Positions 19,161 through 61,789 of a stretch of DNA of 64,000 nucleotides are shown here, piece by piece (the first letter of the stretch is position 1; each line of letters begins with the position of its first letter). Under the pieces are notes generated by a model. The model did not search any database. It was not told the DNA's origin and worked only from the letters and a program-made list of their open reading frames with translations. Source of the stretch: Skeletonema tropicum (taxonomy: Eukaryota > Bacillariophyta > Thalassiosirophyceae > Thalassiosirales > Thalassiosiraceae); contig CM074140.1 of assembly GCA_037178625.1 (NCBI GenBank), positions 682,001-746,000 on the forward strand, in the 5' to 3' direction. The position numbers were made by a program, and so were the translations under genes.

Positions 19161-19820
19161 GGGCCACTAGAAGCGGCTCATGAGCGTATTGACGACGATA
19201 GGTACGATTTGGTTAGGATGTGGTGGTGCTGGCCAGCCCACACTGGACCTCTCATACCACCTACGAGGCTGTAGCATCGTTTCTACTCACGCCAAACGTC
19301 TGAGCAGTGCTATTGTGCTTGTTTAGTATCGACGTCGAGTATAATGGGCCACTAGAAGCGGCTCATGCGCGTATTGACGACGATAGGTACGATTTGGTTA
19401 GGATGTGGTGCTGCTGGCCAGCCCACACTGGACCTCTCATAAAAGCTACATGGTCGTTTCTACTCACGCCAAACGTCTGAGCAGTGCTATTGTGCTTGTT
19501 TAGTATCGACACCGAGTATAATGGGCCACTAGAAGCGGCTCTTGAGCGTATTGACGACGATAGGTATGGTACGATTTGGTTAGGATGTGGTGCTGCTGGC
19601 CAGCCCACACGTCTGAGCAGTGCTATTGTGCTTGTTTAGTATCGACGCCGAGTGTAACGGGCCACTAGAAGCGGCTCTTGAGCGTATTGACGACGATAGG
19701 TACGATTTGGTTAGGATGTGGTGGTGCTGGCCAGCCCACACTGGACCTCTCATAAAAGCTACATGGCTGTAGCATTACTACCACTCACGCCAAACGTCTG
19801 AGCAGCGTTTTTGTGCTTGT

Positions 19821-21125: not shown

Positions 21126-21357
21126 TGTCCAATCTAGCTAACAATTGAGCTTATTATTGATCAATAGATGTAACGAATAGAATTATTATGAGGATTACTT
21201 TACACTGAAGAATAAAGCAGCATCTCTCGTGAAAGGACATGGATTGAGAGGGGCTGCTCTGTTTCGATCGTATCAAATGTTCCGATCGTACCAAACAAAG
21301 AAACGAGAAACACATATGAACAGATTGTATGTCCAGTCTACTGACGTGGATGTGACA
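21126..21357. repeat. dispersed 232-bp repeat, copy 1
   Basis: Nearly identical to 43221-43452 (one difference noticed, gtgaaagg versus gtgaatgg) and inverted at 57648-57879. It contains a short internal near-repeat, ttcgatcgtatcaaatg / ttccgatcgtaccaaac. It has no coding potential and the homology ends sharply on both sides. Confidence 0.9.
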
Positions 21358-26598: not shown

Positions 26599-29500
26599 TC
26601 ACTGCATTGTATCGATCTCTGCATTTGATTGGTAACCCAACATGTCGAGAACTGGTCGTTCTTTGGTGTCCTTCAAACGTTGCTCGAAGCGAATGAGATT
26701 TTGAGGAATATTGAAGCCGCGTTCCAGGTCTAAGGGTTTCATCAGATACAGTCCAGCTAGTGTTCTCACCCTCGACAAGACAACGTAGACCCAGTTCACG
26801 CATCGATAATTCCAGTCATTGACGATGAGGATGTCTTTGGACATTCCCTGGAGCTTGTGGCCTGTTGTTGCTATGTTAGAGTTGACAGGAACCTGTTTGA
26901 CCTTGGCGTTGCCGATGGTTGTACTGATTGTTTCAGTCAGAGGGAACTTGATTGTGGCTGAGAATTCTTGTGGTTTGAGCTTGAAGGTCCGTGCTTTGGT
27001 GCCGGTGGTTGGGTAATGCTCGAACTCCACCCACTCCACGTCGTCAACCGACACAGTCCATACCTTCTTTCCATCCCAATTTTTCCACCTCCTCTCCCGC
27101 CCATCCTTTCTAAGTTTGATTTTCAAGCACTTGCAAAGAGTCCCGTTGCCTCGCCCTTGGTCAAGATCCTCATTCGTTATGCACATATGGTGGGATCCGG
27201 GGTAGATGCGTAGGGCAGGCTCGATTTTAGCTCCTTTTGCTGCAAACTCGGTTGACCTTATGTCATCATCTCCCAGCTGCGTGATGACAGTGTCATGGAA
27301 ATGCGCGGAAACTTTTCTACGCTGCCTTCGTTTCCTCTTCTTGCTGTTGCCGCTTTCATTCTCAGTCGTTTTGGATATAGATACTGATGCCTCAATTATG
27401 AGAGTGTGATCAGGAGGTGGGCTATCGTCATCAATGGTAGGATGCGATTCATCGATGTGCATTTTGAATGATGCTGCCGTGACGCCATTTCGTTCTTTGT
27501 TGGTAGAGCATGCAAAACATGCGTCAGGTGCGTGTTCGGGCAATGTTAGCGTGGAAGTGGAGCTAGTACTAGTGCTGACGACGCGCTTGTTTATTAGCTC
27601 TCTATCTTCACGTGTATCCTCCCCCATTCTCATTCTAGCGAGTATTTCCCCAAACTCGGGGTCGTCTTTGAATCTGTGGCTATTATCAAGAAAGATGGCA
27701 CAGTTGATAGTATTCTCCCAAATTGAAGCTGCATCGGAGTCTGAGTAGAGGACATCATCTTCTGCACAGATTGGCTTCAGTTGGTGGAAGTCTCCAGAGA
27801 AGACTATTGAAACCCCCCCATAAACCATGTCATATCGGCCTGTCAGCTTTTTCAGCTGTTTGTCAAGTTTTACGACATCGTTTGCCTTGAAAAAAGATAT
27901 TTCATCAATAATGAGGATTCGCACATCATCGCGCCAAATAGCCCTCATCTCATCATTGATCCTACTTTTGTTCAAGTGGGCTGCGCTGTGGATTGTTGTT
28001 CCTCCAAAGAGAGCTGCAGCTGAACCAGTCGTTGCAGTGAAGTAGAAGGTATAATCATTGAAGGCGGCTGCGATAGCAGTGCAAAATCTGTGACAGTAGT
28101 ATTGGGCTGCTTCCATAGTTGTACTCTTGCCACAACCAGCGGGACCTGTGATGAACATAACGAGGTGCTCCTTTCCTCCCTTTGCTTTGAGATCCCGGAC
28201 TAGACTGTCTTTTGTATGTTGCACGCTTTCCGCCAAGGGACCGAGCGTTGCTCCTAGCAATTCTCCAAGCTTGGTATCATAGTGATTTCCCTCCATGACG
28301 AGCTGGAGCAGAAATGTACAACACACTATTTGATAGGCAATAAATTGTTTGTTGTCGAGGTTGTACTTACTGCTCTTGCCCCTTGCAATCTCGTACATGG
28401 TGGGAATCTGTTTGAGACATTGCTGCCTTAACTTTAACGATGAAGGTTCTTCTCCATCTTCATCTCCATCTTCATCTCCATCATCCATGTCTCTATCAAA
28501 GGTACCTTCATCACTGCTACTAACAAGCAAAGATCCTTGAATGAAAGTGAGGATGTCCTCATATCGGACACGAACATTGTAGGATGCGGACTGCTGCTGT
28601 TGATGATTGTTGGCGTCAGCGTTGTTTTGAGTGTGCTCTGAATTTGTGGTTGATGTCGATGGCTTGTTTGCAGTTGCAAGTACGGACACATTGTCATCAA
28701 CGTGAGTTTTGATAGCGCTACATGCACGAACATTTGCTCTTTTCATTATCTTGGCATGAGACCTGAGGTCGGCGTCAGCAAGTGGCCGTGATTCTAAGGC
28801 TTGGAATTGCTTTAAACCCTCGTCATTCATATTATCAAAGAAGTCACTTATGTCAATATCATATCCATCATCGTTGTCCACGTTTTCTCTCTTTCGTTTC
28901 CCAGTACTCTTTGGAGTGTCCGTCAAGTATGTGATCTTGCTTTTGGGTCGTTTCATTTCCTTTTCGGCCATGCGCCTCGTTTCGATGTTTTCCAGAATCA
29001 TCCTACCGCGGTTCCAAAATTGTTTTGACAATGGATTCAAACCAAGTGTGTCGTCGATGATCGCTTCACTATACTCTTTCGTCCCTCCTACATCAACAAA
29101 CTTTTGCCAGTAGGTCCCATTCTTCACCAAATCTTCTGCTTTGCTGAATGGATAGAATAGCAGCATTGCTGTTTTTGCGTACCTTTCTCTGTGCTGCACA
29201 GTTCCACTATTGGGGATATCCTCAAGCACATCTAATGACTTCACGTCGCAAAGGTCTGTGGCCATGTATATGATGGGAATGACTGGATGTGTTCGTCTCG
29301 TAAGGTAGCAATATTTTTGACCTTGGTGGAGGTCGGCAAACTTGTAGGATGTGGTAGTAGTGCTTTTGCTCCTGGCGTTCAATTGCTTGAAGCTCTTGTA
29401 TTCCTTTTTGTACCACATTGTGTACTCGTAAAGGCACAAGTTGTTGAGCTCGGTTGGCCTGTGAATGTAGTCGTAAGTCGAGCAATCAGCCCATGCAATT

Positions 29501-32500
29501 GTTTCCTTTGTGTCGTCGTTCCAATTCCTCCGCAAACGGAAATGCATGCCTTCCTTCTCTTCTAGTACATTCTCCATGTTTTGAAGTGAAATGTGATCGA
29601 AATCATGTGAGTAAGTGAACCTTTCTCCCCCTTGGAAGATCAGTAAGTGGGCCATAGTGGAGCTTACAACGTCTCTGGAAAGAAATGCGTTCACCCCGGT
29701 AATTATTCTCCCGAGTCCTTCAACAAAGCAGGCATGTTCCTCTTCGCCGTCATCTTTGTCTGTGGTTGTGCTGCCTTCTGCTAGAGCTGTGGCTGTGACA
29801 TCTTCTGCTGGCTGGTTCTGCATTCTCTCCTCCTCCTTCTCCTCATTTTCATGTCGATCTCTATGTTGCTGGTGTTCATGTGCTCTATACAGCCTCCTGG
29901 CCATTGAGGCATGGACTCGACGGTATGCCATCTTGTCTTCGGATTGTGTGTCTTTGGACTTGTACAGCGTGGTGTAATAGGAGTGGCTCCAATCACCCAG
30001 TGTTACATTGGTATTGCTTCCAATAACATCTGAAATCGCCAAGCTGTGTTGGTTGAGAAACTGACTGCCATTCTGTCTTTTCGGTAAGATTGCATACTGA
30101 GATTTTTCTTCTACCTCACCATTCAGATGGTGATGAAGGATGACCTTGACCCCATTGGCGTCGCTTGTGTTACGATGATCATCGTCTCTCAGGCCTTCTT
30201 TCACGCCAGCTATTGCTTCATTGTCGAAAATGATGGAATCTTCACTTGCCATCTCTGGCAAATGCCCTCTGCATTCTGCTTTCCCACCCTTGAAACATGT
30301 TCCCCGATGTGTATAATCATGCTCGTCAAAAACAAGATGCAGGAGGTCCCTGCGTAGGTTTCTATCATGTAGCCATTCATGAGTTACTTGTTCTTGTTCG
30401 TTGGCTCCATCTCCGTCTCCGTCCGCATCCATTATGATGTGTTGTTGTTTCAGCGCTTCAGTAGGACTTCCTTCCTCTTCAAAATCAAAAGGGTAGCGAA
30501 TCGCTGCTTGATCGAGCCATTCCTTTTTCATGTTTGTTGAAGAGTCTGGTGCGTCTTCTTTACTGCTATCTGCATGATCTTGAAGTGTTTGTTGACGTAA
30601 GTGACTAATACCCATGTTAATACACTCTGATGGCGAAAATGTTTTCCCACACTGTTTGCATTCCAATACTTTGCCCTTAACATCAAGGCAATGATCCTGG
30701 TGATGTGCTTTGCGAAGGATATTCTTATCTTCTACCTCCTGGAGTATTTCGTGCATAGGCATCGTAACAGGGCTATCTTCATCACAATTGTGAGTCACAA
30801 CAAAATCAGTCCCATAGCTGGCACAGACAACTTTGTCAATGTATGATATGAGAGCATCCCTTGCGGCTTTCTTTTTTCTGTCATCACTATGAAATAGAGC
30901 ATCTCTAATTTTGTTGAAGTCTTTTACCCATATTTGCCAGTGACTATGAAGTGTCTTCCTGCCTTGCTCTTCGTCAGTTCTTGAGTACGCTATTGGTACT
31001 CCGAACACGCCTAGTCGCCCTGTTTGTTTCTTTGGGTCCCAACCTATCAAACATTCTGTAATAATCTGCATCAAATGCTGGTAAACAAGAGAACATGCCC
31101 CTGGATACAGACGTCTGGTCTCCTTTCTCAGCTCAAAGTTGAATCTACATTCTTTCAAGTGGTCTTCGTCATCCCAGACACCAAGATTTGGCAGCACCAC
31201 CTCCTTGCCAGCGTTGGCGAAGACTTGGACCCTGATGGTGCATTCATCACATGGAGTCGTAGTTAAGAAAATGGAATGGCCTCCGAAGTAGTTATCCATT
31301 GCGAAATGCTTGCGGCGATTTTGTTTGGCACTCAAAGCAGTGTACCCGACTGGTTTGCACGCTGCCTCCACTGCCCTGATGTATTCTCCAGCCGTTCCAT
31401 TTACCCTTTGGCGGGTTTGTTTTTGAAACAATGCCTGATCGAGGTCTTTCATTTTGAGTTTTGACATCTTCTCCGCAAGTGACTGGCCGAATAAACTGGA
31501 TTTGCAAGTGACCACGGCTGTCTCGTAACTGCGCTGCCGATTGAACATGTGGTTCAGCAAGAGGAGAAAGTCCCCCCTCATGAATTGAGGAAGCGAGAGT
31601 CGGCAGTAGTAACGATAGCATTCCACCGGAGATATGTGAGTCCTCCGCTTTGCCTTTGGCCCCCCTTGACCAAAAGGAAATTGCAGTGGCGCAATATTCT
31701 CGAGAAGAAGTTCTCTAAGATCTGCATACTTGCTACCATTGACCAGAAGTGTTGGCATTGTACGATCAATCATAGCTTTGGTAAACTTCTGGTTGGATTC
31801 GTAAACCCCTGTATCATCTTGCGGCTCATGGATGCTGGTGAAGTGGAACGAAGCTCCAGCAAACTTTGCTTCTAGATCTGGATCATGTTCTTGATCAGTA
31901 TTGTTGGGTGTTTCTTCGTCGACGATAATGTTGGGCTGAGGGCACTGTGATGGTGCGGTAACTCCTTCATATCCTGGGTGGCCAGACTCATTAACGAACC
32001 ATTCTAATATTTCCATCATTTTCTCTGTGTCAAGCCTTGCTCTTTTTTTCACTATTTCCTTCTGTTTCGGAGTCATTCGTCCACATAACACGACATAAAC
32101 AAGCGGGTTTGCACCTGTTGTCAAGAAGTGATTCATTACAGAACCAGTATGGGTAAGATCAACCTCGAAAAAGCTAAAGTGACCACGGATAGCTTTGTGA
32201 GCACCAGCTGTATACGCGAATATGTAGGCAAAAGGGCGGACAGGAGCTAATAGCGAACACATCTGCTCTGTGATTTCCTCATTGGCAATGATATCCGTGG
32301 GGATGTGGCCGATGGCAAAGCCGTTACTGATGGCATACTTGGGCGGTGAATCGCTATCATTGTGCCACGCACTGTAACATTGGCTGCATGCCTCAAATGC
32401 TACACATCCGTTCTTGTTCTTGGTCTTCTTGGCTCTTGGTGATAGCAGAAGGCCTTCGAGCTCTTGGCCTTTGATTTCATACTGTGAAATAAGCTCATCT

Positions 32501-32931
32501 TTCAGCGTGACATGGTGGTAGTCCTCATAGGATTTGACGCTTATCCTATTTTTCTGAAAACGAAGCGAATCAACTGTTATCTTGTGGATAGCCTCACACC
32601 CAATTATTAGCCTATCGCATAGTACACAGACAGCAGTGCGAAATGCATTTGGATTGCTATCGACTCTCATTATTTTCTTTTGGTCATGATTGCGTGCCTG
32701 TTGGACTGGATGTGTTCTGTCAACAACGATCTCGTAATCACAACTCTTTCCAATGCTCTCCTCTGCGCTCATCGCATTCGTTCGTTGACGGTAAAGCCTT
32801 GCCGCAGCGGTCTTTTTTGCCTTCTGAGCTGCCCTCTCCTCTGCGCTCATCGACTCAATCTTGCGTTGACGGCAAAGCCTTGCCGCAGCGGTCTTTTTTG
32901 CCTTCTGAGCTGCCCTCTCCTCTGCGCTCAT
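26599..32931 (-). CDS. Helitron-type Rep / PIF1-like helicase protein
   Basis: A 2110-aa open frame. Residues 1-60 are two full copies of a 27-residue repeat (MSAEERAAQKAKK...RQRKIES). Cys pairs near 100 and 185 may bind metal. Residues about 215-260 (NEEITEQMCSLLAPVRPF) resemble DUF6570, and about 550-700 resemble Helitron_like_N (IFLTTTPCDECTIRV). LHSHWQIWV near 660 gives an HxH motif, and SYIDKVVCASYG near 695-705 gives two tyrosines as in Rep nucleases. CKQCGKTFSP is a zinc-finger-like pair near 760. A PIF1/SF1 helicase follows: GPAGCGKST near 1596, LIIDEIS near 1672, FSGDFHQLKP, and TGHKLQGMS and YVVLSRVRTL near 2025-2060. The gene is open from this ATG, but its natural N-terminus lay further upstream and is now broken. 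Confidence 0.8.
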   Translation of the reverse strand: MSAEERAAQKAKKTAAARLCRQRKIESMSAEERAAQKAKKTAAARLYRQRTNAMSAEESIGKSCDYEIVVDRTHPVQQARNHDQKKIMRVDSNPNAFRTAVCVLCDRLIIGCEAIHKITVDSLRFQKNRISVKSYEDYHHVTLKDELISQYEIKGQELEGLLLSPRAKKTKNKNGCVAFEACSQCYSAWHNDSDSPPKYAISNGFAIGHIPTDIIANEEITEQMCSLLAPVRPFAYIFAYTAGAHKAIRGHFSFFEVDLTHTGSVMNHFLTTGANPLVYVVLCGRMTPKQKEIVKKRARLDTEKMMEILEWFVNESGHPGYEGVTAPSQCPQPNIIVDEETPNNTDQEHDPDLEAKFAGASFHFTSIHEPQDDTGVYESNQKFTKAMIDRTMPTLLVNGSKYADLRELLLENIAPLQFPFGQGGPKAKRRTHISPVECYRYYCRLSLPQFMRGDFLLLLNHMFNRQRSYETAVVTCKSSLFGQSLAEKMSKLKMKDLDQALFQKQTRQRVNGTAGEYIRAVEAACKPVGYTALSAKQNRRKHFAMDNYFGGHSIFLTTTPCDECTIRVQVFANAGKEVVLPNLGVWDDEDHLKECRFNFELRKETRRLYPGACSLVYQHLMQIITECLIGWDPKKQTGRLGVFGVPIAYSRTDEEQGRKTLHSHWQIWVKDFNKIRDALFHSDDRKKKAARDALISYIDKVVCASYGTDFVVTHNCDEDSPVTMPMHEILQEVEDKNILRKAHHQDHCLDVKGKVLECKQCGKTFSPSECINMGISHLRQQTLQDHADSSKEDAPDSSTNMKKEWLDQAAIRYPFDFEEEGSPTEALKQQHIIMDADGDGDGANEQEQVTHEWLHDRNLRRDLLHLVFDEHDYTHRGTCFKGGKAECRGHLPEMASEDSIIFDNEAIAGVKEGLRDDDHRNTSDANGVKVILHHHLNGEVEEKSQYAILPKRQNGSQFLNQHSLAISDVIGSNTNVTLGDWSHSYYTTLYKSKDTQSEDKMAYRRVHASMARRLYRAHEHQQHRDRHENEEKEEERMQNQPAEDVTATALAEGSTTTDKDDGEEEHACFVEGLGRIITGVNAFLSRDVVSSTMAHLLIFQGGERFTYSHDFDHISLQNMENVLEEKEGMHFRLRRNWNDDTKETIAWADCSTYDYIHRPTELNNLCLYEYTMWYKKEYKSFKQLNARSKSTTTTSYKFADLHQGQKYCYLTRRTHPVIPIIYMATDLCDVKSLDVLEDIPNSGTVQHRERYAKTAMLLFYPFSKAEDLVKNGTYWQKFVDVGGTKEYSEAIIDDTLGLNPLSKQFWNRGRMILENIETRRMAEKEMKRPKSKITYLTDTPKSTGKRKRENVDNDDGYDIDISDFFDNMNDEGLKQFQALESRPLADADLRSHAKIMKRANVRACSAIKTHVDDNVSVLATANKPSTSTTNSEHTQNNADANNHQQQQSASYNVRVRYEDILTFIQGSLLVSSSDEGTFDRDMDDGDEDGDEDGEEPSSLKLRQQCLKQIPTMYEIARGKSSKYNLDNKQFIAYQIVCCTFLLQLVMEGNHYDTKLGELLGATLGPLAESVQHTKDSLVRDLKAKGGKEHLVMFITGPAGCGKSTTMEAAQYYCHRFCTAIAAAFNDYTFYFTATTGSAAALFGGTTIHSAAHLNKSRINDEMRAIWRDDVRILIIDEISFFKANDVVKLDKQLKKLTGRYDMVYGGVSIVFSGDFHQLKPICAEDDVLYSDSDAASIWENTINCAIFLDNSHRFKDDPEFGEILARMRMGEDTREDRELINKRVVSTSTSSTSTLTLPEHAPDACFACSTNKERNGVTAASFKMHIDESHPTIDDDSPPPDHTLIIEASVSISKTTENESGNSKKRKRRQRRKVSAHFHDTVITQLGDDDIRSTEFAAKGAKIEPALRIYPGSHHMCITNEDLDQGRGNGTLCKCLKIKLRKDGRERRWKNWDGKKVWTVSVDDVEWVEFEHYPTTGTKARTFKLKPQEFSATIKFPLTETISTTIGNAKVKQVPVNSNIATTGHKLQGMSKDILIVNDWNYRCVNWVYVVLSRVRTLAGLYLMKPLDLERGFNIPQNLIRFEQRLKDTKERPVLDMLGYQSNAEIDTMQ

Positions 32932-39779: not shown

Positions 39780-41243
39780 GAAGGCGAAAGCAACCAAGCT
39801 GGATATTTGGGCCGAGTTTGCCAAAGTTCAAGACTCTAAATCAGACCACGATACAAAACTGGCCCACCCAATCCTCATATAACACCAGCGGATGTATTCA
39901 CTGCACTAGAACGTTCATAATGTTGTGATATCGACCACGATGGGTAAGGTATGCCGAAAGATGGCAATTTTCCACGCCCCATTTCAAATTGCATTACGAC
40001 GAAGTAGACCTATTTCGAACCAAAAAATGACTGTAGACATTGAATACATAGACAACAAGCTGCACATGGAGCCTCGTTCGGCCTCCAATGAGGTCCGTAA
40101 CATGGTGCACGGTGCGGTCGAACATGGTAGTTTTGGTGATGTTTTGTTCTGTGTGATTTTGAGGCCGGATGGCGAAGCGCGCCAAATCACTTCACCGATT
40201 TTCGGCCCCTTGGAGGAGCCGACAATGACGCCCTTAAGACCATCAACATCGCCGATGAAGACGAATCCAACGATACGAATGGCACGAAATGACCTCAATG
40301 GACCAATCTTCGCGAGATCGGGCTGTGATTTGACGATTTGATCACTACAGAGACCATAATAAGCGCAAAAGGGGCATTTAACTAGTGGGTCACTAACAAA
40401 CTGAATATCTTGATAACTACATAACTATTGGAGCAAAAACGGCTCCATTTGCAGTTCTTTGGTCCTAGGGGTATACTGAAGCTGTCTGAGAAGTATCAAG
40501 GCGATTTTCCAAAATTCGTTTTGTTAGTAGATTTAACTAGCGTCACCACCCATAGCTGCACGAATCATGTACACTCGTGAAAATAACCGCCTTCTCCACA
40601 TGTACTATGAACAGTTGACTGGATTGTCGCTAGAGGATGCCTACCTTCCTCCATTGAAGGATGACAACATGGATATTGGCCAACGTGACCACATGTTGAT
40701 CTTTTGAGTGCATTGAATTGAATGAATGGGGTAGTAGTGAGAGTTGCGGGGTGCTTCTTGATCATGCAGAGCATTGTAAAAGGTATATCAAACGCTAAAT
40801 GGCCTATTTAACTGATAACAAAGAAATTTTCATTTTTTGGTTCCATTTGCACCCGCGTGATAGATTCCATCCACCCGAGCTGAAAAATTTCCTTGTACCA
40901 ACTTTTTGCCCGTGATAAGTAAGATAGATAGATACATAATCTATTAAAAGCCCCTCCAGGTTTAAATTCTTCTTTCTCTACTGACACAGGTGTCTAGGGA
41001 GTAGTGAATAAAATAATCTATCTATCTATTTTAGTCACTACTCTTCTAGACAGATAGTCTAGAAAGAAGTAATAAGTACTTAGGAGTACCTATCTACCGA
41101 AGTTCTCCAGTCCCAATTAGTGTGTAACTAACACATTAACGAACGGCACCCTTCCACACTCATCTCTCCCTTTCACCTCCTTGGAACATTGATACGTAGT
41201 TTACCGTATATAGCACAGAAATAACCCAAAGCCCCACACAGCA
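39780..41243. other. gene-poor stretch of the left arm
   Basis: An open frame at 39925-40341 exists on both strands in all three copies, with no recognised product. 40948-41060 holds a dispersed repeat (ctactgacacaggtgtctagggagtag, resembling 20720-20760) and tatc-rich simple sequence. No supported gene. Confidence 0.4.
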
Positions 41244-41606
41244 AAGAAGTTCTTCGAACTATACGATACCTCGAAAGAAAGAAACAAAAAAGTTCTGTGT
41301 TCTGAGAGCTTATTTACAATACCCTTTACCCTTGTTCTGAGAGATATCTTCTTCTCAAATCAATCACACGACCTTGCTATACCCTAGGCTAAAGCAGTCT
41401 TCAGTCAGTCAAGGAGAGTCTTGTCGGCCTCCACGAATGAGCTATTGAGAACACTCCGAGAGAAAGAACAATTTGTCTTCAAACACAACTTATTACATCC
41501 TTTATCAACTCGGAAAGAAGATCAAGTAAGATGCTTAGATTGGCTCCTACGCAGAAAGAATGTAACTTGCTACGTGATGGAATTCAACTAGCATCCATTC
41601 AGCAAT
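41244..41606. repeat. direct repeat flanking the silaffin-like gene, upstream copy
   Basis: About 363 bp matching 43596-43936 with scattered indels. Shared blocks include gtcaaggagagtcttgtcgg, gagaaagaacaatttgtct, tcctttatcaactcggaaag and ggaattcaactagcatccat. Both copies end at the same point, attcagcaat. Confidence 0.88.
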
Positions 41607-41806
41607 AGTCTTGTCCAAGATAAACATCAGCAACAAAATGAGAAAATTTCAATTACTTCTTCGAATGGATCAATGTTGACGTGTTAAGGAAGTCGATATC
41701 TTTGTTCTTTTTGCAATATGACGATAAAGCCGTGCAATCATAATTTTTCCACTTGCGTATCGAGCAAGTAGAGTAGCTTTATTGGAACTCTATATACAGT
41801 GACAAG

Positions 41807-42990
41807 ATGAAGCTCCTTCACATCCTTTTGATTAGTGTTATCGCTTTTGCGGCTCGTAAGTTCCATGCTGTTATCCTCGTTTCAAATTAGCTGTGTCGCG
41901 ATATCAGACTTTTATGAACCATTTTTCTCTCACTTGTCTTCTCATTCAACATTAATTCGTAGAATCTTCTGCATACTATCCAACTCCTTCCGGCAAGAGC
42001 AGCAAGAGCGAAGCCTCTTATCCTTCCGCTAAGAGTTCCAAGTCGAGGCGCAGAGAACTTAGCTCCAGCAAGAGCAGCAAGAGCGAAGCCTCTTATCCTT
42101 CCGCTAAGAGTTCCAAGTCGAGGCGCAGAGAACTTAGCTCCAGCAAGAGCAGCAAGAGCGAAGCCTCTTATCCTTCCGCTAAGAGTTCCAAGTCGAGGCG
42201 CAGAGAACTTAGCTCCGGCAAGAGCAGCAAGAGCGAAGCCTCTTATCCTTCCGCTAAGAGTTCCAAGTCGAGGCGCAGAGAACTTAGCTCCAGCAAGAGC
42301 AGCAAGAGCGAAGCCTCTTATCCTTCCGCTAAGAGTTCCAAGTCGAGGCGCAGAGAACTTAGCTCCAGCAAGAGCAGCAAGAGCGAAGCCTCTTATCCTT
42401 CCGCTAAGAGTTCCAAGTCGAGGCGCAGAGAACTTAGCTCCAGCAAGAGCAGCAAGAGCGAAGCCTCTTATCCTTCCGCTAAGAGTTCCAAGTCGAGGCG
42501 CAGAGAACTTAGCTCCAGCAAGAGCAGCAAGAGCGAAGCCTCTTATCCTTCCGCTAAGAGTTCCAAGTCGAGGCGCAGAGAACTTAGCTCCGGCAAGAGC
42601 AGCAAGAGCGAAGCCTCTTATCCTTCCGCTAAGAGTTCCAAGTCGAGGCGCAGAGAACTTAGCTCCAGCAAGAGCAGCAAGAGCGAAGCCTCTTATCCTT
42701 CCGCTAAGAGTTCCAAGTCGAGGCGCAGAGAACTTAGCTCCAGCAAGAGCAGCAAGAGCGAAGCCTCTTATCCTTCCGCTAAGAGTTCCAAGTCGAGGCG
42801 CAGAGAACTTAGCTCCAGCAAGAGCAGCAAGAGCGAAGCTTCTCCTGTTTCCGCCAAGAGTTCCAAGTCGAGGCGCAGAGAACTTAGCTCCAGCAAGAGC
42901 AGCAAGAGCGAAGCTTCTCCTGTTTCCGCCAAGAGTTCCAAATCAACCACTGTTGTCAGCGTCAGCAAGTCTTCTAAATCTGCGGTGTAA
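41807..42990 (+). CDS. silaffin-like repeat protein (secreted, two exons)
   Basis: Exon 1 (41807-41855) encodes MKLLHILLISVIAFAA, a textbook signal peptide. A 107-bp intron (GTAAGT at 41856, TTCGTAG ending at 41962) splits a Gln codon. Exon 2 (41963-42990) starts SSAYYPTPSGKSSKSEAS and ends in SKSSKSAV, giving 358 aa. It carries twelve 25-residue repeats (consensus KSSKSEASYPSAKSSKSRRR plus ELSSS), one Tyr each in most, with paired KxxK lysines. Diatom silaffins such as Cylindrotheca fusiformis Sil1p have Ser/Lys repeats closing with KRRIL-type processing sites; their lysines carry polyamines and their serines phosphate, and they form silica in the silica deposition vesicle. The RRREL ends match an RxL processing motif. 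The silica role is inference from composition and architecture. The last two units read SPVS in place of SYPS. Confidence 0.8.
42001..42950 (+). repeat. 75-bp tandem repeat encoding the silaffin-like units
   Basis: gagaacttagctcc recurs every 75 bp from 42054 to 42879 (twelve times). Units are nearly identical at the DNA level, differing mainly at ctccagc/ctccggc and in the last two units (gcttctcctgtttccgcc). The near-identity at silent sites points to recent unit homogenisation. Confidence 0.97.
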
Positions 42991-43220
42991 GCTGCTGTGT
43001 TTTTTGTCTCAGCTTATGTATGTATTGTATTTAGGATAGTTGAGTAATTTTCTAAGTTATTATTATTATTATTTAATTCATTTGTTCATGCGCGGTTTGT
43101 AGAGTTTTGAGATTGATATGGTTCCGCTTAAAGTTCATGGCACGTCTCCCTCTAGAGTCCCGCCGACTTTGATAGCCAGAATTCCGCAAACTCAGCCAGC
43201 TGCTAACCGTGGTACCGAAC

Positions 43221-43452
43221 TGTCCAATCTAGCTAACAATTGAGCTTATTATTGATCAATAGATGTAACGAATAGAATTATTATGAGGATTACTTTACAC
43301 TGAAGAATAAAGCAGCATCTCTCGTGAATGGACATGGATTGAGAGGGGCTGCTCTGTTTCGATCGTATCAAATGTTCCGATCGTACCAAACAAAGAAACG
43401 AGAAACACATATGAACAGATTGTATGTCCAGTCTACTGACGTGGATGTGACA
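43221..43452. repeat. dispersed 232-bp repeat, copy 2
   Basis: Matches 21126-21357 in the same orientation and lies about 230 bp past the silaffin-like stop codon. Confidence 0.9.
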
Positions 43453-43595
43453 CGAACTCCTGAGAGAGCGAGGGAGATTTTCAATTTCCAATGAGTCATA
43501 GATACTTAGCGGCTTTGATTACCTCGAAAATGCCATACTTGTGATCTACGTATTTAAATTCTTAAGTACCTACCTGCCGATCACATCCTTACAGA

Positions 43596-43936
43596 AAAAG
43601 AAGTTTGTTCTTCGAACTAAGTATTGTACAATACCTCGAAAGAAAGAAGCAAACAAAGAGTTCTGAGAGATATCTTCTCAATCAATCACATGACCTTGCC
43701 ACGAGCAGTCTTCATTCAGTCAAGGAGAGTCTTGTCGGACACTCCACGAATGAGCTATTGAGAAAACTCCGAGAGAAAGAACAATTTGTCTGCAAATACA
43801 ACTTCGTACACATGAGCATGCACTACATCCTTTATCAACTCGGAAAGAAGATCAAGTAAGATGCTTAGATTGGCTCCTACAAAGAAAGAATGTAACTTGC
43901 TACGCGATGGAATTCAACTAGCATCCATTCAGCAAT
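43596..43936. repeat. direct repeat flanking the silaffin-like gene, downstream copy
   Basis: Matches 41244-41606. It holds an open frame of 84 codons (43605-43859) ending NELLRKLREKEQF ... ILYQLGKKIK; the upstream copy lacks part of this, so it is not clearly a gene. Confidence 0.88.
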
Positions 43937-44424
43937 GAATTTTTATACCCAGGGGATATAGTTCGCGGAGATTCCCTGTAACTGTAATGTGCCTTTGTTG
44001 CATACATTGCTCAGTGAGGAGATGTTGAGGAAAATTATTGTGGATCAAGTAAGTAGCTGGAGCAGATGCATTGACTATCTACAATGATCCTGAAAATAAA
44101 GCAGAAGATGAGTTTCCAGAAGATATCGAAAAGAGATGCAATGAAATCTCAACCAGACACATCACAGGTATGATGTAAGTGGGAGAGTAGGTAGGTATGT
44201 TGTGGGTAAGTCATAAGTCATACTAACGAGACCACTTTTTACTAACGAGACCAGTGTCTCGAGGTGACCTTGGTAACGAGACCAAGCCAATAGTCTCCTT
44301 CTATCACCATACATAATTAGGTACCCGCGCCTGTTTGCTGGAAGGAGAGCATTGCTTGATTTTTAAATTTTGTTATTTTTATAATGTTTATTCTGTTTCA
44401 AATATGAACATGAGAAATCATACT
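43937..44424. other. gene-free stretch before the tRNA
   Basis: No gene seen. The block tatagttcgcggagattccctgta (43957-43980) is the approximate complement of 37727-37750, a dispersed inverted repeat. acgagaccactttttacta / acgagaccagtgtctcgag is a small local repeat near 44226-44260. Confidence 0.4.
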
Positions 44425-44495
44425 TCTCCCATAGTGTAGTGGTTAGCACTGTTGACTTTGAATCAACCAGCCGGCGTTCGAATCGCCGTGGGAGA
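44425..44495 (+). tRNA. trnQ-TTG: tRNA-Gln (anticodon TTG), second copy
   Basis: Identical in all 71 positions to the gene at 37077-37147, while the flanks differ beyond a few bases. It lies about 250 bp upstream of the membrane protein start codon. Confidence 0.95.
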
Positions 44496-44745
44496 ACACT
44501 TTTTGCACACGGATGGAAGACACAAACTCTGAAACACGTGATTGATCCGGATACTTTTTGCAAAACACGATGGCTACACAACAACAACCTGCAACAACAA
44601 CCTACAACACACACAAGCCGATTCACTCTTCAATAATCGTTGCAATGCCTCTTTTATTTGCTCAGCAACAGTACGCAAGGGAACTGAATAGCGGTGCCTA
44701 AAGCTGTTACATTACAAAGAAGCGACAGAGCTCGGAGTAGTCATA

Positions 44746-47700
44746 ATGAAACAATCAACATCAACTTATCTTCCTGAAGCATCAGCCTCTTCCTACGGCC
44801 GAGACATTGATGATGAATTCAATGATCACTCACTGCCAACGTCGTCGTCATGTGACAATGCTACCATGTCACGATTAGTACGGCCCGCTGCTGTTGGTTC
44901 TGCTCGGCCTGATGATGAGAATGACCACTACCCCTACAATAATAACAATACTATGGGTACCGTTGAAAATTACTCACAACAACATAACTGCTCATCATCG
45001 GCATCGCGAAGAACAGTAGCAACCAAGATAGCAGTGCTAACTCTCCTACTATTCGTTGCTGCCGTAGCAATCATATCCAACAACAATCAAGTTCAATACG
45101 ATGATACATGGAACACAGATAACAATGTAATATCTGACTCTACTACTGCTGGAAGGAGACGAGATTCCACCGGGGGGACTACTACTGCTATTACAAGTAC
45201 TTCTACGTCCTCCTCTTCTACAACATCAACGTTGCTAACGCGAACGTCGCAGTTATCATCCCTACTATCCAATTTGGATGCAAGTGATGTTATTGAATGT
45301 TATATTGTCACACGGATGGCAAATTTGGCAAATGTGGAAGCTTACTCCTCGTCATCAGGAAAGGGAAGTGGTGTTGGTGGTGGTAATAACCACCACAACA
45401 ACAATCACAACTACAGCAATCGACGAAGAAACATTCAAACAATGGAAAAAGAGAATAATGAGAATGGTAATGATGATGCCACAATGTCAACTTCATCATC
45501 ATTTCCCACGGGTCCAGTCCTCATACGGAAAGCAGCACTTGCATTTCGATACCGTCCCAAGGTTGCATCAGTGTCACATGTTGCACCTGGATCAACAGCA
45601 TCATCATCATCGTTATCCGCAAATAATGATCAATCCGATGCAACAACAACAACAGCAACGTTGGACCAACAGAAATATTTTGAACTAACATTAGAATACG
45701 GTCCACAACGTGCGGGTGCAACCAAAACATCCGAATCTATGCCCATGGTACACATCGACATGGAAGTCATGGCCAACTACAATAATGACGATGAGAACGG
45801 TGGTGGTGGCGGTCTAAAGTACGTCTCATGGGACAATCAAGGATCCATCTACTACTCCACCCACATCTCCAACGAATGGTCCGGAGCCTACTACATGGCA
45901 CCCATCACAGGAGTCGTCCTCGAAAAGATTTTAGAGAAGGCGGTAGAATACCCTACGAAACGTCCACGATATCAACCATTTGAAGTGGTGTCGATCCCAT
46001 CGAATACTGTGATTTTGAAGAGTTCCGGGTCGGATGATTTTGTGTGGGATATGTTGAAGGATTTGGCGGATTTGTATGTGGATATTGATCCGATTTTGGT
46101 CCCGCCTAGGGGGAAGGTTCAATTTTATGTTGCCGATCCAATCGTTGAAGGAGGAGGAGTGGACAATAATAATGGAAATAATAAGGATGTGGAGGGAAGT
46201 AGTGGTGGAACAAGGTCCAATGTCGAAGTGATGAGGCAAAAAAGACGTCGTCCCAATCCCAATGTGAAACGAGTCGTGGGTGCATTGGAAAGTTCCAAGG
46301 CTGCGGTATTTTATGAGAATTTTTTCAATTGTGCCAATGCCAAAAAGACTGGAGATTATTCGTTGTTTGAAGAAGTTTTGGTGTCGTCGGCTCCCACTCC
46401 TGTTCCGCCGGTTTTGGAGGGAGAGGATGTAGTTATTTCGAACACTACTACATCATTGGGTGTGAGTAAAGAAGATGAAGTGGATGATGGATTGAATAGA
46501 GATGGATCTATTCGAAGGCTTGATGGCAGTTCAAATTCTACCATCGCCTCCACCACCTCGAGTGAGGTAAACGTTGATGCAGCAGTAGATGTAAAGGGTG
46601 GTGATAATAGCACCGATTCTTCTGCGCCAACAACAGAAAGTGGAGATGTCACCGAGATAATTGAAGAGGTTGGAGATGTCGCCAAGACAGCTGAAGATGT
46701 CGTCGGGGTTGCAACTGAGGGAGACATAGATAAATCAAGTCCTCCTCCACTAATCGACGATGACGACGATTATGAAATAAAAACGATTAATACTGATGAA
46801 GCAAATACTGACAGTGAAGATGACGGCGATGTAGCCAAAGCAGCCGAAAAAGCAGCCATAGAGGCAGCACAAAAAGCCGAGACAGCTGCAGCCGTAGCTG
46901 CTACAAACTCTTCTTCACCCGAAGACAGCGCCAAGGCTGCAAGTGAAGCTGCAATAGCCGCAAAGAAGGCAGCAGATGCCTCTCACGCATCGAGAGCGAA
47001 GTCGGCTGCCGAGGGATTACTTAGTGGAGATGGTGCCATGATGACTTCAATATTATCTTCGTGTTTTAGCGACCCAAAATATGGAATTCGAAAAGTTGAC
47101 GAAGAACAAAGTTCCACGACTTATGCGTATGTGTATCTGGACGGGGATGTCTTCATCCGGTTGAATCTGACCGCACCGTATTGGGGACCGTCGACAGTGC
47201 TGCAAACAATTCCACCACCCCACGCGCACGTGGATGGACAAGGCGATGTCGTAGATTGGGCAATCTTCCTACTACTCATTTGCGGGACTGTTTCGGCTTC
47301 CTTGTAATGGTCCATCAACTTGGTGTCAGCATTGACGATCGCTTGCAATTTCGACACGTCTTCCATCCGCTGGAAGATAGTGCCATCATCGAAATGGAAC
47401 GACTGGAAATGGGCGGCGGGATCCCACACTCAATTGGAATTGATGCTATTCCAGTTAGTTTGGGTGGTCAACTTTCTCATTATAATGGTAGTCAGGGAGA
47501 GGGTCCGCCATCAACTTACAAAGATCGACTTTCAGAGTCTTCAATAGATGACGATGAAAACAACGGCTTACTAGGTATAGAACTTGCAAATCGAAAAAAT
47601 GCCGTGTCCGTGGCCAGGTTACAAAAAAGAAACAGTGATGGCGTACGTCGCGTGCCATCACGGTTGTTACAAAGAAGAGCAAGTGATGGCGTGTCATCAC

Positions 47701-48077: not shown

Positions 48078-50548
48078 ATGCAGGTATGTCTTCCAGCTGG
48101 TTGGCGAAAGTTGGCGAAAGATCTGCAAAAATTTGATGCAAAAATTTGCACTTCGCACCTCAACCGCGCAACCACAAGCCTACCACAAGCACAAAGCCAA
48201 GCCAACGGAATAGCCATAATCTGCCACCCCCTATATCATCTTCTTTGGTTTGATAAGATCGAAAGAACCATGAATATTGAACTTGGTGATGCTGTCCTCA
48301 CAGAATTTGGCACCGGCGTAGTCACCTGCCTACACGACGGCGGCGGCTCATCATGGGCCACATTACGGCTGAATCGTCAGCCTGGAAAATCCATTGCATC
48401 CGGGACATTGCTCACGGCCAAAACAGTGTGTCTTACTAAAAAGTTGGTTGCTGCGTCTGGAATGATTGTGCGTGGAGATCATACTGCTGACGAGGATAAA
48501 ATAATAGCAGATGATGATGAAGATGTCGCCACTGCTTCTCGAGAGTATGGAAGGAAGTATTTGATTGAGAAGTACATTCCCGAGAGAGATGTTTATTTGG
48601 CATCTGTAATTCCAATCAATGATGAAGGAGAGGGGGTAGATGATGGTCACTCACTTGCAAAATCTTTGTCTGTCATGAGCACTCCTAACCCAACAGTGAA
48701 GAAATCTCTGTCAAAGATAGAAGAGGATGGTAATGATGACGAAACAGGTGATAACCGCGAAGGCGAAGAGCAACAAACCAATGATGAGAAACCGAAAACA
48801 ATTGTGGAATTGAACGCTAATCAAATTGATCCCTCATCTACCAGTGCCAAATTCTATCCAATGCTGGAAGATTTGATGCGTAGGGGTGAAAAGGCATGGT
48901 CATCATTAGATGCAGTAAAGCAGAAAACGAAGGAACATCTTGAGAATGATACCGATGAGGTTATTGCAGATAAGCTCCTCTCATCATGTGCAATCACAGT
49001 GGATGACAATCAAGATGGCAAAGAAAATAAAGCTGCCGCGGCAAAGGTTATTTCCGATGCTTCAAAATCTTCCATGGATGTGATTAATGACAAGATTAGC
49101 TCTGTTGCAGCATCAACACCCGAGAAGATTGAATCGGTCAAGGCTGCCACCGAAGGTTTATCTTTACCCGAGGCGAATGAAATTCGACAAGTTTACGATA
49201 TGTTGCGTGATGAAGATTTGACAAAGTTGCTGCAATTGGGGCGTGAACGGTTGAAGGATTTGGTCGAGGTGGATGTTCCTGATAAAACAAAGAAGGCACT
49301 GCAAGCGATGGGCATTGAGATAGATGAAGGGGATGGATTATCAGCATCATCATCCGGACAAACTATTCGAGAGAAGATGAGCAAATTGCAAAAGGAGGCT
49401 TTGGCATCGATTGAACAAATGTTGACAATCAATGTATCGGGTGATGGTATCACAGTTCAAGCCAATGGGCACAACGCAGGTATTACGTTTGATAGCTCCA
49501 AGATTGCGGAAGCAATCCCAACGTCTCCTTCTCGACAACAAGTTCATCGGCAGGCGAAAGAACAATTTGCAAAAATGTTTGATCATCTCTCCACTGTGGC
49601 AACGTCCGATCCACAATTGCTTTCTATATATTCGTCAATATCAGAAAAGACCAAGATGTGGCAAGAAATGACTGGGAGATTATTCCAAACAAAGACTGTC
49701 GGGATGTTTATGGAAGGTACGCAACGACTTCGGACACGAGCAGCGCAGTTATTAAATCTCGCGCCGGGCCAATTCCAAGGTCTTGGTGGTGGTGGCGTTG
49801 GTAGTGATTTGACACGTGCATTTACCGAAGGAGATGTAGCCATGGCAAAACTTAAATCAATGGAAATGGGGGATGCAATCAGATCACGTCTGTTTAAGGC
49901 AATTGAATTACGTAGTGAGAGTAGCGGTGGCTTAGATGCAATTATTGCTGGTTCTTTGGCAGCAATATCACGAACTGGTGACGATTACAGTGCCAAGGCG
50001 TCATCATTGCTGGGAATGGATAGAGTGGAGAACAAAGCAAAGTCACTAGCTGGAGGCGTTGACGAAAATACGATCCAATCTGTCATCAATAGGGTGCAAT
50101 CATCAGCTACATCTGCTATGAAAGGTACGAAAGAAACCCTCATCGCCCTTCTTTCAGAAGAAAATACTATTTATCGTGATGCAGTTCTTCTACGCCTAGA
50201 GCAGGTATTTCTTGATCTTGAATCACAGCTGGGACAAGAGCTGTCTGCAGAAGAAATTGCCAAGCTAGCAAGTGGAGAAGGAGGGACAATGTCACTGTTT
50301 AAGCCTGTTGCAATGAAAGCTGCAAAAGACATGAATTGCAACTCGATGCTGTAGAAAACAAGATGAAAGAATCCAAACATTGGAACAGTAAGGCGGATGA
50401 TGCCTTGGCGAAGGTTAGGCAAATAACAAGCGGTGAGTTATCAATGTCTGACATATTGGACATGGCTGCAAGTTTTCTAGATGACGATGAAGTGGTGTCG
50501 AAGAGTGGTGAACTGATTTTGAAGGCGGAATCGTTATTGGACGATTTT
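48078..50548 (+). CDS. large unrecognised protein, truncated at the palindrome centre
   Basis: The frame is open from 48078 but the more likely start is the ATG at 48270 (MNIELGDAVLTEFGTGVV), after which the sequence becomes ordered. One base is missing at about 50331 relative to the other arm; correcting for it, the frame runs on through AVENKMKESKHWN to ESLLDDF and is cut at the inverted-repeat centre. The N-terminal 60 residues look like a small beta barrel (LTEFGTGVVTCLHDGGG, WATLRLN). A charged linker follows, then long amphipathic helices (LLQLGRERLKDLVEVDVPDKTKKAL, EALASIEQMLTINVSGDGI, QQVHRQAKEQFAKMFDHLS). No membrane segment. I do not recognise the family; the true C-terminus is not in the window. 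Confidence 0.55.
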
Positions 50549-53021
50549 AAAATCGTCCAATAACGATTCCGCCTTCAAAATCAGTTCACCACTCTTCGAC
50601 ACCACTTCATCGTCATCTAGAAAACTTGCAGCCATGTCCAATATGTCAGACATTGATAACTCACCGCTTGTTATTTGCCTAACCTTCGCCAAGGCATCAT
50701 CCGCCTTACTGTTCCAATGTTTGGATTCTTTCATCTTGTTTTCTACAGCATCGAGTTGCAATTCAATGTCTTTTGCAGCTTTCATTGCAACAGGCTTAAA
50801 CAGTGACATTGTCCCTCCTTCTCCACTTGCTAGCTTGGCAATTTCTTCTGCAGACAGCTCTTGTCCCAGCTGTGATTCAAGATCAAGAAATACCTGCTCT
50901 AGGCGTAGAAGAACTGCATCACGATAAATAGTATTTTCTTCTGAAAGAAGGGCGATGAGGGTTTCTTTCGTACCTTTCATAGCAGATGTAGCTGATGATT
51001 GCACCCTATTGATGACAGATTGGATCGTATTTTCGTCAACGCCTCCAGCTAGTGACTTTGCTTTGTTCTCCACTCTATCCATTCCCAGCAATGATGACGC
51101 CTTGGCACTGTAATCGTCACCAGTTCGTGATATTGCTGCCAAAGAACCAGCAATAATTGCATCTAAGCCACCGCTACTCTCACTACGTAATTCAATTGCC
51201 TTAAACAGACGTGATCTGATTGCATCCCCCATTTCCATTGATTTAAGTTTTGCCATGGCTACATCTCCTTCGGTAAATGCACGTGTCAAATCACTACCAA
51301 CGCCACCACCACCAAGACCTTGGAATTGGCCCGGCGCGAGATTTAATAACTGCGCTGCTCGTGTCCGAAGTCGTTGCGTACCTTCCATAAACATCCCGAC
51401 AGTCTTTGTTTGGAATAATCTCCCAGTCATTTCTTGCCACATCTTGGTCTTTTCTGATATTGACGAATATATAGAAAGCAATTGTGGATCGGACGTTGCC
51501 ACAGTGGAGAGATGATCAAACATTTTTGCAAATTGTTCTTTCGCCTGCCGATGAACTTGTTGTCGAGAAGGAGACGTTGGGATTGCTTCCGCAATCTTGG
51601 AGCTATCAAACGTAATACCTGCGTTGTGCCCATTGGCTTGAACTGTGATACCATCACCCGATACATTGATTGTCAACATTTGTTCAATCGATGCCAAAGC
51701 CTCCTTTTGCAATTTGCTCATCTTCTCTCGAATAGTTTGTCCGGATGATGATGCTGATAATCCATCCCCTTCATCTATCTCAATGCCCATCGCTTGCAGT
51801 GCCTTCTTTGTTTTATCAGGAACATCCACCTCGACCAAATCCTTCAACCGTTCACGCCCCAATTGCAGCAACTTTGTCAAATCTTCATCACGCAACATAT
51901 CGTAAACTTGTCGAATTTCATTCGCCTCGGGTAAAGATAAACCTTCGGTGGCAGCCTTGACCGATTCAATCTTCTCGGTGTTGATGCTGCAACAGAGCTA
52001 ATCTTGTCATTAATCACATCCATGGAAGATTTTGAAGCATCGGAAATAACCTTTGCCGCGGCAGCTTTATTTTCTTTGCCATCTTGATTGTCATCCACTG
52101 TGATTGCACATGATGAGAGGAGCTTATCTGCAATAACCTCATCGGTATCATTCTCAAGATGTTCCTTCGTTTTCTGCTTTACTGCATCTAATGATGACCA
52201 TGCCTTTTCACCCCTACGCATCAAATCTTCCAGCATTGGATAGAATTTGGCACTGGTAGATGAGGGATCAATTTGATTAGCGTTCAATTCCACAATTGTT
52301 TTCGGTTTCTCATCATTGGTTTGTTGCTCTTCGCCTTCGCGGTTATCACCTGTTTCGTCATCATTACCATCCTCTTCTATCTTTGACAGAGATTTCTTCA
52401 CTGTTTGGGTTAGGAGTGCTCATGACAGACACAAGATTTTGCAAGTGAGTGACCATCATCTACCCCCTCTCCTTCATCATTGATTGGAATTACAGATGCC
52501 AAATAAACATCTCTCTCGGGAATGTACTTCTCAATCAAATACTTCCTTCCATACTCTCGAGAAGCAGTGGCGACATCTTCATCATCATCTGCTATTATTT
52601 TATCCTCGTCAGCAGTATGATCTCCACGCACAATCATTCCAGACGCAGCAACCAACTTTTTAGTAAGACACACTGTTTTGGCCGTGAGCAATGTCCCGGA
52701 TGCAATGGATTTTCCAGGCTGACGATTCAGCCGTAATGTGGCCCATGATGAGCCGCCGCCGTCGTGTAGGCAGGTGACTACGCCGGTGCCAAATTCTGTG
52801 AGGACAGCATCACCAAGTTCAATATTCATGGTTCTTTCGATCTTATCAAACCAAAGAAGATGATATAGGGGGTGGCAGATTATGGCTATTCCGTTGGCTT
52901 GGCTTTGTGCTTGTGGTAGGCTTGTGGTTGCGCGGTTGAGGTGCGAAGTGCAAATTTTTGCATCAAATTTTTGCAGATCTTTCGCCAACTTTCGCCAACC
53001 AGCTGGAAGACATACCTGCAT
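50549..53021 (-). pseudogene. inverted copy of the large unknown gene (frameshifted, truncated)
   Basis: Three minus frames (52410-53021, 51877-52401, 50549-51898) together cover the protein of 48078-50548. Breaks: an extra base near 52435 (cttgtgtctg versus ctttgtctg) and a lost base near 51977 (CC versus CCC). Here the last part is unbroken through AAKDIELQLDAVENK, where the other arm is broken. Likely start ATG at about 52830. Confidence 0.6.
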
Positions 53022-58108: not shown

Positions 58109-59293
58109 TTACACCGCAGATTTAGAAGACTTGCTGACGCTGACAACAGTGGTTGATTTGGAACTCTTGGCGGAAACAGGAGAAGCTTCGCTCTTGCTGC
58201 TCTTGCTGGAGCTAAGTTCTCTGCGCCTCGACTTGGAACTCTTGGCGGAAACAGGAGAAGCTTCGCTCTTGCTGCTCTTGCTGGAGCTAAGTTCTCTGCG
58301 CCTCGACTTGGAACTCTTAGCGGAAGGATAAGAGGCTTCGCTCTTGCTGCTCTTGCTGGAGCTAAGTTCTCTGCGCCTCGACTTGGAACTCTTAGCGGAA
58401 GGATTAAGAGGCTTCGCTCTTGCTGCTCTTGCTGGAGCTAAGTTCTCTGCGCCTCGACTTGGAACTCTTAGCGGAAGGATAAGAGGCTTCGCTCTTGCTG
58501 CTCTTGCCGGAGCTAAGTTCTCTGCGCCTCGACTTGGAACTCTTAGCGGAAGGATAAGAGGCTTCGCTCTTGCTGCTCTTGCTGGAGCTAAGTTCTCTGC
58601 GCCTCGACTTGGAACTCTTAGCGGAAGGATAAGAGGCTTCGCTCTTGCTGCTCTTGCTGGAGCTAAGTTCTCTGCGCCTCGACTTGGAACTCTTAGCGGA
58701 AGGATAAGAGGCTTCGCTCTTGCTGCTCTTGCTGGAGCTAAGTTCTCTGCGCCTCGACTTGGAACTCTTAGCGGAAGGATAAGAGGCTTCGCTCTTGCTG
58801 CTCTTGCTGGAGCTAAGTTCTCTGCGCCTCGACTTGGAACTCTTAGCGGAAGGATAAGAGGCTTCGCTCTTGCTGCTCTTGCCGGAGCTAAGTTCTCTGC
58901 GCCTCGACTTGGAACTCTTAGCGGAAGGATAAGAGGCTTCGCTCTTGCTGCTCTTGCTGGAGCTAAGTTCTCTGCGCCTCGACTTGGAACTCTTAGCGGA
59001 AGGATAAGAGGCTTCGCTCTTGCTGCTCTTGCTGGAGCTAAGTTCTCTGCGCCTCGACTTGGAACTCTTAGCGGAAGGATAAGAGGCTTCGCTCTTGCTG
59101 CTCTTGCCGGAAGGAGTTGGATAGTATGCAGAAGATTCTACGAATTAATGTTGAATGAGAAGACAAGTGAGAGAAAAATGGTTCATAAAAGTCTGATATC
59201 GCGACACAGCTAATTTGAAACGAGGATAACAGCATGGAACTTACGAGCCGCAAAAGCGATAACACTAATCAAAAGGATGTGAAGGAGCTTCAT
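58109..59293 (-). pseudogene. inverted copy of the silaffin-like gene (one frameshift)
   Basis: Exon 1 is 59245-59293, the intron 59138-59244 and exon 2 58109-59137, all mirroring 41807-42990. One extra T at 58404-58405 (ggattaag in place of ggataag) shifts the frame in about the tenth repeat, so the last two to three units and the SPVS tail are out of frame. Signal peptide and splice sites are intact. Either a sequencing error or a true null copy. Confidence 0.75.
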
Positions 59294-61705: not shown

Positions 61706-61789
61706 TAACCTCCATTGAAATTGACTTGCGCAGGTACATAAAGAATAAGAACTTCACTCGGTGATGGTCAAGATTTCAGATAAGTAAAC

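Follow-up and report, generated by a model that had tools for sequence, protein, structure and literature searches.

A split gene for a predicted secreted, silaffin-like repeat protein in the centric diatom Skeletonema tropicum

Results

A two-exon gene with a regular repeat array

The window that we analysed, meaning the whole 64,000-nt stretch C14:682001-746000 on chromosome 14 of the Skeletonema tropicum genome, carries a plus-strand gene whose two exons join in frame across a 107-nt intron (Table 1) into 358 residues and a stop, in the layout that an earlier note on this DNA had claimed. That note had also held that the repeat exon lacks a start codon and is invisible to ORF calling, and this is borne out: exon 2 has no ATG in any plus-strand frame and, lying inside a 344-codon open frame, is missing from the list of 27 window ORFs of at least 150 aa. 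By eye, the N-terminus consists of MK, a hydrophobic stretch (LLHILLISVIAFA) and AFA/A. Exon 2 begins QSSAYYPTPSGKSSKSEASYPSAKSSKSRRREL and continues with 11 more 25-residue units ending in RRREL, a 13th unit and the tail TTVVSVSKSSKSAV. The first of the 12 RRREL ends closes a 33-residue segment made of leader plus unit, the next 11 close exact 25-residue units, and the 13th unit has no RRREL; the regular array of twelve repeats previously described is thus present (TRF finds 75 bp x 12.7 at 98%) with one further unit, although the repeat number depends on the present assembly. The claim of one Tyr per repeat stands for 11 of the 13 units, which read SYP, and fails for the last two, which read SPV, while the leader adds YY. 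Gly replaces the Ser before the first KSSK in units 1, 4 and 9. The predicted protein has 27 K[SG][SG]K motifs and 12 REL, with each of the first 12 units ending in one REL.

Table 1. Features of the repeat gene and its copies, in window positions
Feature	Position	Strand	Description
Exon 1	41807..41855	+	49 nt, encodes signal-peptide-like MKLLHILLISVIAFAA, ends in phase 1
Intron	41856..41962	+	107 nt, phase 1, GTAAGT..TTCGTAG
Exon 2	41963..42990	+	Short leader, 12 RRREL-terminated units, 13th partial unit, tail TTVVSVSKSSKSAV, stop
75-bp tandem array	41989..42941	+	TRF: 12.7 copies, 98% matches
5' flank in common with the chromosome-7 paralogue, promoter/5'UTR candidate	41334..41806	+	BLASTN block from 41334; last 200 nt 163/193 identical
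Second copy of the upstream block	43590..43936	+	No exon 1 after it; 88% to C7 upstream; 43660-43936 vs 41334-41606 84%
Inverted gene copy in palindrome arm	58109..59293	-	Ends inferred from mirrored alignment
Fold-back centre of the 39409-61707 palindrome	50548..50549	.	Third copy carries on the neighbouring gene's reading frame

Probably one gene in a fold-back palindrome

The earlier note mentioned neither a palindromic duplicate of the gene nor its paralogues. The palindrome 39409-61707 shows no mismatch in 22,332 aligned columns, with 52 gap openings over both halves; when the arms are aligned directly there are 25 gaps (one at the centre) and 8 mismatches, which lie together beside a shifted one-base gap (40782-40790). 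A third, direct copy starts at 61706 (C14:743706 onward) and runs on past the window. Beyond the window it aligns with the left arm for 10,101 bases at 99.97%, up to the palindrome centre, where the match ends; at that point the neighbouring gene (48078 onward) stays in frame through the third copy, while the first copy folds back. Over the gene region the third copy is identical to the first and encodes those 358 residues, and the minus-strand copy has a one-base insertion in the array that breaks the frame and leaves only 260 residues. S. tropicum heterozygosity is given as 0.73% for a PacBio CLR assembly (PMC11032307), so an independent 11-kb allele should show about 80 substitutions, and none is seen between the arms. 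These plus, minus and plus copies, which differ almost only by indels, are almost certainly explained by a fold-back read in the PacBio CLR assembly, and for this reason we take the locus to have a single gene instead of three. The inverted copy was considered as a real second gene and rejected, given arms free of independent-allele substitutions, the frame-breaking insertion and the fold-back at the centre. The triplication also yields extra copies of several genes, among them a tRNA-Gln and two large ORFs that match no Pfam family, and it interrupts one gene at 50548.

The orphan copy of the upstream flank (Table 1) is a probable remnant of a tandem duplicate; on the plus strand of 43001-45000 after it, the best site for exon 1 has 25 mismatches in 49. 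Other repeats and mobile-looking sequences surround the gene. A 232-bp sequence occurs twice at 99.6% identity, at 43221-43452 shortly after the gene and 22 kb from there at 21126-21357, and is a candidate short mobile element. The minus-strand ORF at 26599-32931 (2110 residues), with PIF1 helicase and DUF6570 over the cut-off and a Helitron-like N domain below it, points by its domains to a Helitron-type element, which lies some 9 kb from the gene. At 13974-19610 a 185-bp unit recurs about 30 times in tandem (15 times if counted as 375 bp), with no Rfam match at the gathering threshold.

Paralogues and wider family

Within the genome searched (78,392,479 bases, 125 contigs), a paralogue lies on chromosome 7 from C7:1885916 onward, and its 133-nt intron has the same ends as that of C14. 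Its unit, SSSKSGKSTDSPTYSPTTSKSSKSRREL, is 28 residues long against 25 in C14 and follows the same design; the alignment score of C14 with C7 units exceeds that of every one of 5000 shuffles. Past the stop, the two loci agree at 46 of 94 bases. The C7 frame hits in-frame stops soon after the eighth RREL (263 residues), with a stretch matching the C14 tail beyond them, which makes this paralogue either shortened or decaying.

Two more genes have a similar predicted layout. The one on C21 (402521 onward) opens with MKISHVLLISLIAGAAA, followed by a phase-1 intron of 101 nt and KSSKSCTKSSKSC, and ends near RRGLRGL; the one on C6 (3406392 onward) opens with MKIFHVILITLVAGAAA, followed by a phase-1 intron of 99 nt and then KSSKSCTKSSKSC as in C21 and RRGLRGL, the splice sites of both being predicted. 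C14, C7, C21 and C6 have a predicted layout in common, in which the first exon bears the signal, the phase-1 intron measures 99-133 nt and the second exon bears KSSKS. C21 and C6 are similar in sequence to each other (E about 1e-15, scaled to a large database) but to C14 and C7 only at chance level, so that kinship with C14 rests on layout, not on score. Both proteins bear Cys, and their KSSK pairs lie close together (gap 3), in agreement with the cingulin lysine-enriched-region rule; in C21, two of the five KxxK gaps (3 and 6) fall in the 1-6 range.

At C6:3406392-3407279 the open frame of the silaffin-like gene continues without a break into a domain of the phosphorylase superfamily (PF01048, E 7e-25), and this joint frame is either a chance read-through or a real fusion precursor. 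The domain looks like an MTA/SAH nucleosidase, which we take to be an enzyme tied to polyamine synthesis. On C3, at about 4.38 and 4.66 Mb, there are long signal-bearing repeat proteins of the type GSKSGKATEAPSSQPSMMPSTKSGKANLRSDALSDLLDDADMPE, with KSGK, PS repeats that match PF04886 ('PT repeat') and an acidic segment; these are a second predicted silaffin-like family of the genome. Elsewhere, light-harvesting protein gene clusters with equal scores occur on C5, C6, C13 and C17, with at least 128 PF00504 matches (150 of 162 candidates scored).

Evidence that the gene is coding

Since a second plus-strand frame is also open over exon 2, openness alone proves nothing, and the units of C14 are too uniform for the variation among them to say much on coding (2 synonymous and 5 non-synonymous variable sites over 11 units in register). 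The C7 repeat is more informative. All seven of its variable sites are synonymous third positions in the predicted frame (P = 3.9e-5, from seven full units, the count omitting an eighth, divergent unit that turns C14-like half-way), where the expected synonymous share is 0.23, and none of the seven is synonymous in either other frame; the family is therefore coding and has been under past selection. Exon 1 is identical between C14 and C7 at 49 of 49 positions, compared with 163 of 193 upstream (Fisher P 7e-4) and 87 of 107 in the intron (Fisher P 3e-4). But exon 1 is free of synonymous change too, so gene conversion between the two loci could explain its identity, and we regard such conversion as possible.

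These results bear on the idea that we are looking at a non-expressed array, either a 75-bp satellite open by chance or a decaying pseudogene. The second open frame, the stops in C7 and the duplication remnants and Helitron-like element in the region would all suit that idea, but it sits badly with seven of seven synonymous differences in one frame only, with the contrast in conservation between intron and exon, and with two unit lengths that are both multiples of three behind the same splice phase. We consider it very improbable. On the sequence evidence, the C14 locus is confirmed as a real gene, with a predicted secreted-type precursor that is a variant of the silaffin-like kind.

Homologue and literature searches

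Searched against the protein collection, the whole C14 protein gave no match at E <= 1 among 4686 candidates, within bounds on length (0.55-1.75 x query) and word limits, and gene callers may miss a split gene of this kind. The collection includes silicon transporters named as Skeletonema marinoi and S. menzelii, and with filters off phmmer scores C7 against the C14 query at E = 1.3e-23 at the size of that collection, so the negative result has some weight. A profile built from C7 and C14 returned 3 of 7986 scored candidates at E <= 10 (E = 0.2, 1.1 and 1.6). The second and third (P0122 and P0123) have signal-like starts, KSGKSYD-type repeats and RXL-like sites, and their E-values are no evidence of descent. 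No Pfam family was found for the C14 protein. Silicon-transporter matches in the genome (PF03842) number nine, six of them near full length and three of them pieces of one further place; one S. tropicum transporter is 86% identical to one of S. marinoi and 85% to one of S. menzelii, with closest matches at 93% and 90%.

The C14 gene is not described in the main-text passages of the diatom silica literature surveyed. Yeast Sil1 is, we presume, an unrelated ER chaperone factor. The silaffin counts in the S. costatum genome paper used a 'Sil1' query from Saccharomyces cerevisiae and other queries from T. pseudonana (PMC6198448), and blastp with those queries would hardly find a gene like the one in C14.

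Silaffin-type criteria

The published rules for silica proteins divide over C14. Silaffin-like proteins (SFLPs) are defined by at least 100 residues with >=18% Ser and >=10% Lys plus an ER signal (PMC3820600), and the C14 chain after residue 16 (342 residues) has 42.7% Ser and 15.8% Lys, together with 10.5% Arg and a computed pI of 11.0. Silaffins, cingulins and silacidins are described as having none or one Cys (PMC5525289), and this chain has none. The RXL processing motif is present as 12 REL. The T. pseudonana KXXK screen looked for repeated KXXK (X = S/G) 1-6 residues apart (PMC5501833); in C14 all 26 gaps between the 27 motifs are 8 or 9, and this spacing also leaves it without a lysine-enriched region (two or more K(X)2K with spacings of up to 4 residues). 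T. pseudonana-type silaffins have at least one pentalysine cluster, with 5 Lys in 12-14 residues (PMC9650480), and C14 has none, as no stretch of 14 residues contains more than 3 Lys. When the unit body is shuffled, 1330 of 20000 permutations reach two KxxK, so that the lysine pairing, taken alone, is no more than chance could give at this composition.

In cingulins, KXXK regions go together with regions rich in Tyr/Trp, and the proteins remain in the insoluble matrix (PMC4557024, PMC3820600, PMC9650480). The C14 product might likewise be an uncut secreted frustule or girdle matrix protein, its intact 342-residue chain acting as a scaffold, and the regular repeats with one Tyr in most units are what such a protein could show. 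However, a Trp/Tyr-rich domain of the cingulin type is absent from C14, which lacks Trp altogether, never has more than one Tyr in a unit and has no distinct Tyr-rich domain, and RRREL stands at 12 unit boundaries, where Sil1p has its processing site. We find this scaffold quite unlikely.

Discussion

We propose that C14 is a nuclear S. tropicum gene that probably encodes a secreted silaffin-like polyprotein with a silica-related role. The sequence itself shows gene structure, family, selection on the C7 peptide sequence, composition and cut motifs, and from translation of the C14 precursor onward we infer the following steps. The signal peptide would take the precursor into the ER, and a diatom protease that recognises RXL would, by analogy with Sil1p, cut it at the twelve RRREL ends. 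Cutting would free eleven interior 20-residue peptides (about 2.0 kDa) and end fragments; eight of the eleven would be identical SSSKSSKSEASYPSAKSSKS, with an unmodified mass of about 2020 Da, two would have Gly for the third Ser, and one would have SPV for SYP. Each freed peptide would carry four lysines in two KSSK pairs, the lysines presumably methylated or polyamine-bearing and the serines phosphorylated, and these short zwitterionic polyamine peptides may help to precipitate or shape silica in the silica deposition vesicle. The repeat units are homogenised within a gene and replaced between paralogues (25 vs 28 residues), with the plan KxxK...Tyr...KSSKS-RREL staying in place.

Identical tandem peptides split by basic sites fit peptide-hormone or kexin-processed repeat precursors too. 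The same precursor could thus free a cationic peptide for a use other than silica, such as a pheromone, an antimicrobial or a component of mucilage or adhesion, with RRREL as a kexin/furin-like basic site. The basic character of C14 (pI 11) and its lack of a pentalysine cluster or lysine-enriched region would agree with this, but the 43% Ser with KSSK pairs is the make-up of silaffin-like proteins, RREL is a form of the RXL motif seen in frustule proteins, and the Cys-bearing C21 and C6 have gap-3 KSSK pairs fitting the cingulin lysine-enriched-region rule. We think a non-silica use rather unlikely, and the biosilica reading of C14 is the most likely one.

More speculatively, a centric diatom might have evolved, independently of Cylindrotheca Sil1p, a silaffin polyprotein that releases about a dozen copies of one peptide, with whole units swapped and re-homogenised between paralogues and only the KxxK, Tyr and KSSKS-RREL design kept by selection. 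If this is true, silica peptides evolve by concerted unit turnover, which would explain the missing homology among the silaffins of different diatoms; those of T. pseudonana and C. fusiformis lack sequence similarity (PMC4557024), which raises the question of how silica peptides evolve. With two paralogues that have different units on one plan, and synonymous-only variation in seven C7 units, the idea of selection on design is testable across Skeletonema genomes, and the short, uniform predicted C14 peptide is an easy target for mass spectrometry and easy to synthesise for silica precipitation assays.

Comparison with known silica proteins

The C14 host is a centric diatom distantly related to the host of Sil1p, C. 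fusiformis, which is a pennate diatom. Like C14, where the signal peptide is a prediction, Sil1p has a signal peptide and tandem Ser/Lys-rich basic units that end in RRxL, with Tyr in the unit and Lys pairs (R5 = SSKKSGSYSGSKGSKRRIL). Sil1p is cut into peptides that lose their RRIL/RRNL ends, its lysines are methylated or carry polyamines and its serines are phosphorylated, and RXL recurs at the repeat ends of other frustule proteins (all PMC4557024). The two proteins differ in that the acidic N-terminal domain of Sil1p (residues 20-107) is absent from C14, where the first KSSK comes 11 residues after residue 16 (QSSAYYPTPSG); in that Sil1p has units R1-R7 and C14 has 12 near-identical 25-residue units; and in that R5 has KK and KGSK where C14 has KSSK pairs, with one Glu in the C14 unit body. 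Full shuffling of the C14 unit reaches its score against R5 in 8 of 5000 cases, and shuffling with the RRREL tail held constant does so in 205 of 5000; for the C7 unit the figures are 24 and 317 of 5000. Closeness in design with a different sequence, as previously suggested, survives for the layout, and so do the Ser/Lys composition and the 12 RXL among the Sil1p-like features, but the R5 score sets the unit apart from shuffles only weakly when the tail is kept, the KxxK pairing is within chance, and the acidic domain, pentalysine cluster and lysine-enriched region are absent. Beyond composition and the RRxL end the similarity to R5 appears weak, an analogy with Sil1p and not a demonstrated homology; given the weak tail-kept test, we rejected shown kinship with Sil1p. 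With moderate confidence we suggest that the C14 product works like Sil1p, and we file it neither as a Sil1p homologue nor as a proven silaffin.

PMC4557024 describes the T. pseudonana silaffins as having no sequence similarity to those of C. fusiformis. Compared by published rules, the T. pseudonana SFLPs share with C14 the Ser/Lys rule, a signal peptide (predicted in C14) and the RXL motif, and differ in KxxK spacing (1-6 vs 8-9 in C14) and in the pentalysine cluster that C14 lacks. The cingulins CinW2 and CinY2 have K[SG][SG]K, repeats and some Tyr, as C14 does, together with the lysine-enriched region and Trp/Tyr-rich domains that are absent from it. Silacidins are acidic, whereas C14 is strongly basic. 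The silacidin precursor nevertheless has RXL at its repeat ends, as in C14 (PMC4557024).
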